Positions 55,606-58,480 of a DNA stretch of 64,000 nucleotides are shown here, in pieces. The stretch is from NCBI GenBank assembly GCA_910575775.1, contig CAJTEY010000005.1:1-64000 (forward strand), read 5' to 3'. The notes beneath the pieces are model-generated. The model was not told where the DNA came from. It did no database searches and saw nothing but the letters and a program-made list of their open reading frames with translations. The first letter of the stretch is position 1. Each line of letters opens with the position of its first letter. Origin of the DNA: Lachnospiraceae bacterium (GTDB lineage Bacteria > Bacillota > Clostridia > Lachnospirales > Lachnospiraceae). Both the position numbers and the translations under genes were made by a program.

Positions 55606-55631
55606 CATGTCCCGCTGATTGGCGGGACATG
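55606..55631. promoter_or_regulatory. Hairpin in the GTPase-nuclease leader
   Basis: CATGTCCCGC (55606-55615), loop TGATTG, GCGGGACATG (55622-55631): a perfect 10-bp stem between the chemoreceptor stop and the fusion gene start, 20 bases before the ATG. There is no T tract, so it may be a weak terminator or a leader control structure. Confidence 0.5.
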
Positions 55632-55651
55632 TTCGCGTATCGGGGGATACT

Positions 55652-58480
55652 ATGAGTATGAAAAAGACAGTCATCGGCCTGCTGGCCCATGTGGATGCAG
55701 GGAAAACGACATTGGCGGAACGTATACTCTATATGGCGGGAGAAATCAGAACCCCCGGCCGTGTGGATCACAGGGATACGTTTCTGGATACGGACGCGCA
55801 GGAGCGGGACCGCGGTATTACGATTTTTTCCAAGCAGGCGCGTTTTTCATGGAAGGACAGCGTGGTGACGCTGTTAGATACGCCTGGACATGTGGATTTT
55901 TCGGCGGAGATGGAGCGGACACTTCAGGTGCTGGACTGTGCGGTGCTCATCGTAAACGGCGCGGATGGGGTACAGAGTCACACGCTGACCTTGTGGAGGC
56001 TGCTGGAGCGCTACCGTGTGCCTGTATTTCTCTTTATCAATAAGATGGATCAGCCAGGGACAGATGCGGACAGATTGCTCCTGGGAGTACAGAAGGAACT
56101 GGACGGGCGCTGCGTATCCTTTCCGTGCGGGAAGGAAGAGCGGACGGATGCATTTTATGAGAACATTGCGGTCTGCGATGAGACATTGTTGGAGCGGTAT
56201 CTGGAGCGGCTGGAGCAGGGAAAGTCTCCGGTGAGCGATGCGGAGATTGCGTCGCTGATAGAAGGAAGAAAACTGTTCCCATGCTTTTTCGGTTCCGCCC
56301 TGCATGGAGACGGCGTGGCGGCATTGCTCGACGCGCTTTCGACATATGCGCCTGCACCAGAGTATGGGGAAGCGTTTGGCGCGCGAGTCTTTAAAATCAC
56401 GAGGGATGCGCAGGGCAACCGTCTGACGCATATCAAAGTGACCGGGGGCAGTCTCAAGGTCAAGCAGACGATAACGGCGTCCGCCGGACAGGACAGGGCG
56501 GGGACGCACCAGACAGAACCGCCGAAGCAGGATGGATCGGGGAGGTCAGATGCGGGCGTATCGGCAAAATCTGTCAGGACAGGCGGGGCGTCATCAGACT
56601 GCGTGGAAAAGATTGACCAGATCCGTCAGTATTCAGGAGAAAAATATGTGACGGTGCAGGAGGCGGAGGCGGGAAGCATCTGCGCGCTTCTGGGGCCGGA
56701 ACACACTTTTTGCGGACAGGGGCTTGGTGCGGAGCAGGAGCCGGTATGGCCGGTTTTGGAGCCGGTTATGACTTATCGGGTCAATCCGCCTGAGGGGTGT
56801 GATATCCATGATATGTATTCGAAGTTATGTAAACTTGAAGAGGAGGAGCCGCAGCTCCATCTGGTCAGGCAGGAGCACAGCGGGGAAATCCATGTCAGGC
56901 TGATGGGCGAGGTGCAGATTGAGATTTTAAGGAAGATGATACAGGAGCGCTTCGGCATGGAAGTGGATTTTGATGAGGGGAGCGTCCTCTACAAGGAAAC
57001 TATCACAGACGTGACGGAGGGGGTGGGCCACTTTGAGCCGCTCAGGCATTATGCGGAGGTGCATCTGATTTTAGAGCCGGGAGAGCGGGGCAGCGGCCTT
57101 ACCTTTCGAAGTTTGTGCAGCGAGGACAAGCTGGATCGGAACTGGCAGCGGCTGATTCTGACCCATTTGGAGGAAAAAACCCATCTCGGGGTCCTCACGG
57201 GATCCCCGATTACGGATATGCAGATTACGCTGGCGGCGGGAAAATCCCATGTGAAGCACACGGAGGGCGGGGATTTCAGACAGGCCACCTACCGCGCCCT
57301 CAGACAGGGACTGTGCAGGGCAGGGAGTGTGCTTTTAGAGCCGGTTTATGAATTTCGCATGGAACTTCCCGCCTCTCTGGTGGGACGGGCCATGACGGAC
57401 GTGCAGGCCATGAGCGGCCGGTTTGACGCGCCGGAGACTTTTGGGGAGGAGGCGCATCTTACAGGCACGGTTCCCGTTTCCGAATTTGGCGGCTATCAGA
57501 CAAAAATGCTGTCCTATTCCGGTGGAAAGGGGCGGCTGTTTACCAGGCTGAAGGGCTACGAACCATGCCACAATGCAGAGGAAGTCATAGAACGGACCGG
57601 CTATGAGGCGGAGCACGATACGGACAATCCGTGCGGTTCCGTGTTCTGCGCCCACGGTGCGGGATTTGTGGTGGAGTGGGACCAGGTGGAATCCTATATG
57701 CATCTGGAGCCGGCGCTGAAGGCGGGGTGGCGGCTGTCGGACGGCAGCATATACGGCGCGGATCATAAAAGCGACCAAAACGGTCAATGCTCCCGGTACG
57801 GACAAGGTGGCGGCGTCGGGGATAACGAGGCGGGAAACGGCGCCGGAGCGGGTAATTTTTCGGAACGCTATGCGAAAAGGTCCGCTGATGGCAGGTCGAC
57901 GGTTGACTTTATAGGTCAAGACGAGGTGGAGGAAATCTTTGCGCGTACTTTCGGCACAAAGGAGCCGAAAAAACAGGGTTGGGCCAGAACCATCCGGGCA
58001 AAGACGGCACCGCCTGCCGAGGTGGAGTACCACGGCAGTCAAAACAGGCAGGAGGAGTACCTTCTGGTTGACGGCTACAATATCATCTTTGCATGGGACG
58101 AACTTTCCGATCTGGCAGGAGCGGATCTGAATGCCGCCAGGTGCAGGCTGACGGATATTCTCTGTAATTATCAGGCGTTTCGAAAAATGCATCTGATACT
58201 GGTGTTTGACGCGTACCACGTGAAGGGCAATCCGGGCAGTGTGGAGCGGCATCACAATATTGATGTGGTCTATACAAAGGAGGCCGAGACGGCGGATCAG
58301 TATATCGAGAAGGTGACCCATGAGATGAGCCGGAAAAACCACCGTGTGCGGGTAGCCACCTCCGACGGGCTCGAACAGATCATCATAATGGGGGCCGGCG
58401 CCATCCGGGTTTCCGCAAGGGAACTTCTCGAGGAGATACGGGCGGCGGAGGCGGAGATGCGGGAGAATTATATCAGTTGA
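55652..58480 (+). CDS. TetM-like ribosomal GTPase fused to YacP/Rae1-type nuclease
   Basis: A 942-residue two-part protein. Residues 1-700 form an EF-G/TetM-like translation GTPase: G1 AHVDAGKTT (12-20), G2 ERDRGIT (51-57), G3 DTPGHVDF with catalytic His80, G4 NKMD (130-133). Domains II-V follow, including a Gly/Ser-rich insert at about 285-325 and LFTRLKGYE near 628-636. A low-complexity linker (about 705-800) leads to a NYN/PIN-like domain of the YacP/Rae1 family (about 802-925). Its acidic residues are intact: Asp807 (VDGYN), Asp853 (LVFDAYHVKG), Asp882 (ETADQY), Asp905 (TSDGLE). TetM's antibiotic-displacing loop is not kept; the loop here reads GKSHVKHTEGGDF, like EF-G. The role is probably ribosome rescue or A-site mRNA cleavage rather than tetracycline resistance (inferred). 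Confidence 0.85.
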   Translation: MSMKKTVIGLLAHVDAGKTTLAERILYMAGEIRTPGRVDHRDTFLDTDAQERDRGITIFSKQARFSWKDSVVTLLDTPGHVDFSAEMERTLQVLDCAVLIVNGADGVQSHTLTLWRLLERYRVPVFLFINKMDQPGTDADRLLLGVQKELDGRCVSFPCGKEERTDAFYENIAVCDETLLERYLERLEQGKSPVSDAEIASLIEGRKLFPCFFGSALHGDGVAALLDALSTYAPAPEYGEAFGARVFKITRDAQGNRLTHIKVTGGSLKVKQTITASAGQDRAGTHQTEPPKQDGSGRSDAGVSAKSVRTGGASSDCVEKIDQIRQYSGEKYVTVQEAEAGSICALLGPEHTFCGQGLGAEQEPVWPVLEPVMTYRVNPPEGCDIHDMYSKLCKLEEEEPQLHLVRQEHSGEIHVRLMGEVQIEILRKMIQERFGMEVDFDEGSVLYKETITDVTEGVGHFEPLRHYAEVHLILEPGERGSGLTFRSLCSEDKLDRNWQRLILTHLEEKTHLGVLTGSPITDMQITLAAGKSHVKHTEGGDFRQATYRALRQGLCRAGSVLLEPVYEFRMELPASLVGRAMTDVQAMSGRFDAPETFGEEAHLTGTVPVSEFGGYQTKMLSYSGGKGRLFTRLKGYEPCHNAEEVIERTGYEAEHDTDNPCGSVFCAHGAGFVVEWDQVESYMHLEPALKAGWRLSDGSIYGADHKSDQNGQCSRYGQGGGVGDNEAGNGAGAGNFSERYAKRSADGRSTVDFIGQDEVEEIFARTFGTKEPKKQGWARTIRAKTAPPAEVEYHGSQNRQEEYLLVDGYNIIFAWDELSDLAGADLNAARCRLTDILCNYQAFRKMHLILVFDAYHVKGNPGSVERHHNIDVVYTKEAETADQYIEKVTHEMSRKNHRVRVATSDGLEQIIIMGAGAIRVSARELLEEIRAAEAEMRENYIS

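Follow-up and report, generated by a model that had tools for sequence, protein, structure and literature searches.

In the 64,000-nucleotide window analysed here (positions 1 to 64,000 of contig CAJTEY010000005.1, assembly GCA_910575775.1 of a Lachnospiraceae bacterium), one reading frame encodes a translational GTPase joined through a linker to an RNase domain of the NYN type, the domain that constitutes Rae1 (YacP) of Bacillus subtilis. On balance, we favour the view that this protein is the Rae1 of its lineage, in other words an endoribonuclease coupled to translation and now carried by a translational GTPase. The presence of both parts in a single frame is an observation and confirms the original prediction, which had been made from the nucleotide sequence alone. 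Such an architecture had been described before: in BMC Genomics, Atkinson 2015 (PMC4342817) noted Tet-YacP fusions from ten species of clostridia and proposed a role in antibiotic resistance.

Counted from its first TTG, the frame extends from 55619 to 58480 on the plus strand and comprises 953 amino acids; from the ATG at 55652 it comprises 942. Pfam profiles assign GTP_EFTU to residues 7-234 (E 1.8e-52), EFG_III to 370-440, EFG_IV to 443-557, EFG_C to 560-641 and NYN_YacP (PF05991) to 804-940 (E 1.7e-48; 165.2 bits, the cut-off being 24.6). The features of an EF2-type translational GTPase, namely G1-G5, the catalytic His and domains III-V, are all present. Alignment located motifs G1-G4 with His80, and likewise the acidic residues D807, D853, D882 and D905, at the positions originally given for them. 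The profile score and the closest solved relative of the C-terminal part, B. subtilis YacP/Rae1 (5MQ8/5MQ9, E about 9e-28), identify that part as an NYN domain, as had been claimed. A search of the same genome at E 0.001 found no second NYN_YacP match. An erroneous joining of two genes during assembly is excluded in practice, since all 80 of the named relatives kept (the best 80 of at least 590 confirmed among at least 596 stretches of named contigs) contain both parts in one open reading frame (ORF); the relative 'Bacterium 1xD42-87' is 95% identical across residues 1-938.

Because a fold search with the full model returned proteins of the EF-G and EF-2 types among the 50 best rows, the NYN domain was modelled separately. 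The resulting AF2 model (pLDDT 90.0) superimposes on 5mq9 in Foldseek with a TM score of 0.82-0.83 and an rmsd of 1.5-1.6, so that the predicted structure has the PIN-like fold of Rae1. Identity to the B. subtilis protein is 40-42% (Foldseek), and the four acidic residues of the active site are conserved in the fusions as well as in free YacPs.

The distribution of the fusion was determined in 293 genomes of its class, taken as Clostridia from the named relatives. NYN_YacP was found in 192 of these genomes and the GTPase subfamily in 126 (E <= 1e-45). In 96 of the 126 the ORF has at least 840 amino acids, and by eye all 96 genomes also have an NYN match; they were counted as fused by ORF length and this genome-level match, not ORF by ORF for each. 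Together with seven shorter or broken frames that contain both matches (G237, G254, G263, G363, G375, G380 and G424), the fused genomes number 103, about one third of the sample, and four of them have a second YacP match (G472, G312, G365 and G398). An unfused sister GTPase occurs in 19 of the 126, in 13 cases with NYN_YacP, and four matches are partial or distant (G393, G425, G322 and G235). Within the genus of the window, NYN_YacP is present in 71 of 77 genomes, some of the listed ORFs being short; in three of the six exceptions (G007, G014 and G051) the GTPase terminates less than 100 bases from a contig end. A phylum sample of 398 genomes gave 40 matches at E <= 1e-45, 28 with ORFs of at least 857 amino acids and some beyond the class. 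GTPase and NYN domain share one ORF in 150 of the fetched loci; without L266, comparison of the last 500 residues distinguishes 142 proteins among the remaining 149.

Two loci contain divided frames. In L101 (5516-8201, minus strand; G118) GTPase and NYN domain lie in two overlapping frames, which may be a natural split, a slip site or a sequence error. In L266 (5275-7995, minus strand; G380, a one-contig genome) the GTPase extends over two frames, one with the end of the G domain and the other with the rest and the NYN domain.

An indication of function comes from the usual place of free yacP. Neighbours were counted within 5 kb, or less at contig ends, and the neighbouring clusters bear names that we presume from reading the sequences. 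Near free yacP (39 loci) rlmB was found 34 times, sigH 33, mrnC 33 and cysS 29 times; near the fusion (148 loci, which include a few near-copies) the respective numbers are 1, 1, 0 and 0. The neighbours in the window are not rlmB or sigH, and no NYN ORF adjoins rlmB in the same genome. In 24 hand-picked genomes, 22 fused and two non-fused controls, rlmB was located in every case. An NYN ORF beside it was absent in 21 of the 22 fused genomes; the exception is G472, also fused, whose second NYN_YacP stands free beside rlmB. Nine of the other fused genomes have sigH after rlmB within the 1.5-kb flank without an NYN ORF; in the remaining 12, no recognised gene comes after rlmB. The controls were divided, with an NYN ORF beside rlmB in G337 and not in G399. 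The fusion seems to stand in for free YacP in about one third of the sampled related genomes. Since it is present where free yacP is missing from its usual place, the idea that the NYN part works as Rae1, already contained in the original prediction, probably holds, though the support is indirect. In G381 a fusion (L233, 3977-12187, minus strand) lies a few kilobases from rlmB and sigH, the only fetched one to do so; this is perhaps a trace of the original place.

In a tree of NYN domains from which four long-branch rows were omitted, one branch (96) has 70 fused rows, among them that of L101, on one side and 39 free ones on the other. A careful GTPase tree of 26 rows comprised seven fusions, seven unfused sisters, seven rows of the type of the tetracycline ribosomal-protection proteins (RPPs) and, for the rest, EF-G (two rows), RF3, LepA and TypA; in it the fusions form a clade of their own (100/100). 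In this sample both trees fit a single fusion event, after which the frames of G118 and G380 would have been split or are affected by sequence errors. G170, whose unfused sister is nearest to the fusions in the GTPase tree, has a free YacP on another contig.

The same GTPase tree bears on the proposal of a resistance protein. Fusions, sisters and RPP rows form one clade (21 rows, 99/97) apart from EF-G, RF3, LepA and TypA; the RPP rows form their own clade within it (100/99), and fusions and sisters fall outside the latter. A constraint that groups fusions and sisters with EF-G was rejected (p-AU 0.007; long branches, only two EF-G rows). By this phylogeny, which places the protein relative to both TetM and EF-G, the GTPase belongs to a subfamily sister to the RPPs. 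It shares with TetM, TetO and TetW the domains G, III, IV and V in the same order, and with EF-G the GTPase motifs and domains III-V. The unfused sisters are 37-52% identical to the window GTPase and have the same tip loops and C-terminal extension; in contrast to the window protein they end soon after the extension, without linker and NYN domain.

The tips of domain IV were compared in 73 fusion rows (one gapped at loop III), 30 unfused, 7 RPP and 2 EF-G rows. TetM, TetO, Tet36 and the RPP of the window's own genome have YYSPVSTPADF at the tip, where the window protein has GKSHVKHTEGGDF instead; within loop III, KHTEGGDF stands against SPVSTPADF. His533 is found in 70 of the 73 fusions, one being gapped, and in all 30 sisters, and EF-G has the same His. 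In TetM the conserved Pro-509 is located in the tetracycline site (PMC8161019). Its column, K535 in the window protein, has no Pro in any fusion or sister and is mostly Lys (69 of 73 and 28 of 30, respectively); Pro is present there in TetM, TetO, Tet36 and two other RPP rows, and two of the seven RPP rows lack it. Loop I, GHFEPLRHYAEVH, and loop III, KHTEGGDFR, are private to the fusions and their sisters. The original prediction that an EF-G-like loop replaces that of TetM therefore stands in part: the TetM loop is absent and H533 is common with EF-G, whereas the rest of loops I and III belongs to the subfamily alone.

The protein might nevertheless confer resistance to tetracycline or another antibiotic, with the nuclease adding a new resistance mechanism, as suggested in PMC4342817. 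The sister position in the clade shared with the RPPs speaks for it, as does tet_protect, the best NCBIfam match. However, the score of this match is 418.5 bits with a cut-off of 775 (NF012153), and the window protein also remains below the cut-offs of NF033148 (258.9 against 1100) and of the EF-G family TIGR00484 (304.8 against 659.4). Arguing further against resistance are the missing Pro (the gapped row apart), the presence of NYN_YacP throughout most of the genus with half of the exceptions ending at a contig edge, and the neighbourhood, in which no cluster is found near more than 11 of the 148 fusion loci (most clusters lack a name from profile searches). Among 1364 plasmid records with any match, coverage of 80% of the query at a single place was reached in only two, of which one is a Monoglobus record. 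A separate TetM/W-family protein is encoded in the same genome (G000:C32; L286, 5128-7206, minus strand; 693-aa frame). It passes both cut-offs (1197.6 against 1100 for TetM/W, 820.2 against 775), so that resistance, if there is any, has its own gene. Tetracycline resistance by the fusion protein is unlikely on these comparisons, and the proposal of a resistance protein as a whole is highly improbable. The earlier warning that a resistance label would probably be wrong is borne out by the curated cut-offs, the position outside the RPP clade and the absent drug-displacing loop.

The C-terminal extension of the GTPase distinguishes the subfamily further from TetM, TetO and TetW. C639 is present in 72 of 73 fusions and 30 of 30 sisters, C666 in 69 and 28, and H684 in 69 and 27; RPP and EF-G rows have no Cys at the position of C639 and are mostly gapped from 659 onward. 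The extension is predicted with high pLDDT as helix-strand-strand-helix, and the three residues are a possible metal site.

In contrast to free Rae1, the NYN domain of the fusion protein lacks the C-terminal tail. After position 925 it has 17 residues, whereas all 39 free YacPs have at least 43; fewer than 30 are found in 18 of 73 fusions, the window protein included. An RR near the C-terminal end occurs in 24 of 39 free YacPs but only 2 of 73 fusions, and a Trp in the tail in 16 of 39 as opposed to none of 73. R166P, which by position falls in this tail, is among the loss-of-function suppressors of efp in B. subtilis Rae1 (PMC6613710). The tail of free Rae1 would dock the protein to the ribosome or orient it there, and in the fusion the GTPase would have taken over docking. 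As the tail lies outside the matched core, the domain assignment stands; its absence makes it less probable that the protein is a Rae1 in the strict sense, not that it works like one.

Another explanation of the fusion is convenience of expression or stoichiometry: two independent ribosome factors would be made in one chain without being mechanically coupled. In favour of this are the separate overlapping frames of G118 (L101) and the variable stretch between the domains, which has a median of 126 residues when counted from where the GTPase match stops to where the NYN domain starts, about 42 of them extension, and which is predicted to be disordered in the window protein (linker of about 120 residues). 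Against it, the trees fit one origin and the fusion has been retained across many families. Furthermore, the linker contains a short helix in which E758, I762 and T766 are nearly invariant in 48 rows, an I.xRT-type pattern recurs in 93 of 149 loci, and the Rae1-type tail signature is rare in fusions. Convenience is therefore an improbable explanation.

A suicide nuclease triggered by stress or phage and aimed at the ribosome is scarcely credible. Nucleases joined to translation factors follow the logic of some defence systems, but PADLOC-DB gave no match at E 0.01, and the regular occurrence of NYN_YacP in the genus (71 of 77) differs from the patchiness of defence genes. The fusion is also carried by two unannotated, phage-labelled records, MT835514 (L318) and MT835563 (L319). 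In MT835514, PHROG matches were obtained for six of eight ORFs tested (exonuclease, helicase, protease, cation-efflux protein and two families without assigned function); in MT835563, two ORFs tested gave none. Judging by an addAB-like pair, we lean towards bacterial rather than phage DNA for MT835514.

More weight must be given to a recycling or biogenesis factor resembling EF-G2 or LepA, in which the NYN domain would mature rRNA or tRNA and the fusion would serve ribosome assembly or recycling. Free yacP lies in a run with rlmB and mrnC, both of them genes of rRNA processing. The GTPase also occurs without YacP in 6 of the 19 genomes with the unfused form, and NYN domains have been proposed to act in rRNA and tRNA maturation (PMC4342817). 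By contrast, according to published accounts the studied orthologue, Rae1 of B. subtilis, cuts mRNA on the ribosome, and the subfamily falls together with the Tet proteins, grouping with the two EF-G rows having been rejected. We consider this explanation unlikely.

Several observations weigh against the fusion being the Rae1 of its lineage. With the four long-branch rows included in the NYN tree, the fused label needs three changes, of which the strongly supported branches force one. If a resident yacP was captured a single time, the absence of free copies goes back in part to one inherited event, and a p value for this absence overstates independence. NYN_YacP had no match in 6 of the 19 unfused-sister genomes (L247, L248, L249, L254, L255 and L262), which implies that the GTPase has a job of its own and that the fusion could be a convenience of expression. 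The tail is partly kept, as 55 of 73 fusions have at least 30 residues after 925; among these 55 the N.L motif occurs in 29 (25 of 39 free YacPs) and the E..R-type motif in 27 (36 of 39), and RR is also missing in 15 of the 39 free YacPs. Finally, E908 and R919 are found in 38 and 39 of the 39 free YacPs and as a pair in only 38 of 73 fusions, so that the choice of target may differ from that of Rae1. In 17 of the 73 fusions both residues change together, to Q/L. Nor do the unfused sister GTPase and YacP clearly accompany each other in non-fused genomes, their association being weak (13 of 19 against 76 of 171 genomes, p 0.055).

If the fusion is nevertheless the lineage's Rae1, the order of events on the ribosome has to be considered. 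Domain IV of GTPases of the EF-G/TetM type enters the A site. Rae1 is likewise described as entering the ribosomal A site or as cutting mRNA in it (PMC12320835, PMC10100781, PMC6613710). Domain IV and Rae1 cannot occupy the A site together; the model must therefore be sequential, or the nuclease acts where the mRNA enters or on an adjacent ribosome. In the sequential form, the GTPase would bind at the factor site when a ribosome has stalled or its A site is empty, and the A site would be probed or cleared by domain IV. GTP hydrolysis would free domain IV while the linker holds the NYN domain nearby; the tethered NYN domain would then enter and cut mRNA that lies exposed in the A site or beside it. 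The truncated complex could be rescued by tmRNA, which is present in the genome. Ribosome binding, A-site cutting, the order of the steps and the passing of docking from the Rae1 tail to the GTPase are all inferred. A GTP-timed A-site nuclease, in which the GTPase opens the stalled A site, replaces the docking tail and lets the tethered Rae1 cut, so that clearing and mRNA destruction form a two-step machine, is a tentative proposal that we hold to be less likely than not.

The proteins of Atkinson 2015 agree with the present one in combining a Tet-family GTPase, in the wide sense of that paper, with a YacP-like NYN RNase in one protein of Clostridiales. That paper names ten species and reads the fusion as possible antibiotic resistance; here the fusion occurs in 103 of 293 genomes, falls outside the resistance clade and appears to replace free yacP. 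In B. subtilis, rae1 is co-transcribed with yacO, an RlmB homologue (PMC6613710), and encodes a free protein, in contrast to the fused domain, which is found elsewhere in the genome. The literature search, whose scope did not include the main Rae1 papers, recognised no paper other than PMC4342817 as treating the fusion, which those papers may mention; nor did it find the distribution, the position of the GTPase apart from the resistance clade, the lack of yacP next to rlmB or the change of the tail.

The features of the gene are listed in Table 1. The inverted repeat upstream of it occurs once in its own genome and, among the fetched loci, elsewhere only in L127, L128 and L131. A perfect stem of at least 8 was found in 18 of 113 upstream stretches compared with 2 in one shuffle. 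When 12 loci were searched with Rfam for a regulated leader, the matches were a lysine riboswitch in L064 and a 5S rRNA in L229, each over 1 kb away from the fusion gene.

Table 1. Features of the fusion gene and its upstream region (positions in the window)
Feature	Position	Strand	Remarks
10-bp perfect inverted repeat, 6-nt loop	55606..55631		between upstream chemotaxis-type gene and fusion ATG
GGGGG, Shine-Dalgarno-like	55642..55646	+	first G 10 nt 5' of ATG; read by eye
Fusion gene	55652..58480	+	942 aa; translational GTPase, linker and Rae1/YacP NYN domain
GTPase (G) domain, residues 7-234	55670..56353	+	G1-G5 and catalytic-type His80 intact
EF-G domains III, IV, V, residues 370-641	56759..57574	+	Pfam
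Domain IV tip loop III, residues 530-542 (GKSHVKHTEGGDF)	57239..57277	+	replaces TetM loop; H533 aligns with EF-G His
GTPase C-terminal part and private extension, residues 639-684 (C639...C666...H684)	57566..57703	+	common to unfused sisters
Linker, residues 685-803	57704..58060	+	disorder predicted for 704-756 and 765-798; contains a short conserved helix
NYN/PIN-like RNase domain, residues 804-942	58061..58477	+	D807, D853, D882, D905 intact

The natural fusion offers a direct handle on how Rae1 reaches and recognises the ribosome, as GTPase, tether and nuclease can be disabled separately, and nature provides the comparisons: free YacP with an unfused sister GTPase, the fused form, and the GTPase alone. 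A family widespread in gut Clostridia that is close in sequence to the tetracycline-resistance proteins and lacks their drug-displacing loop also bears on the counting of resistance genes in gut metagenomes. If the fusion is a GTP-timed nuclease, the clearing of ribosomes and the destruction of their mRNA would be joined in a large part of the gut Clostridia, hidden by kinship to tetracycline-resistance proteins.

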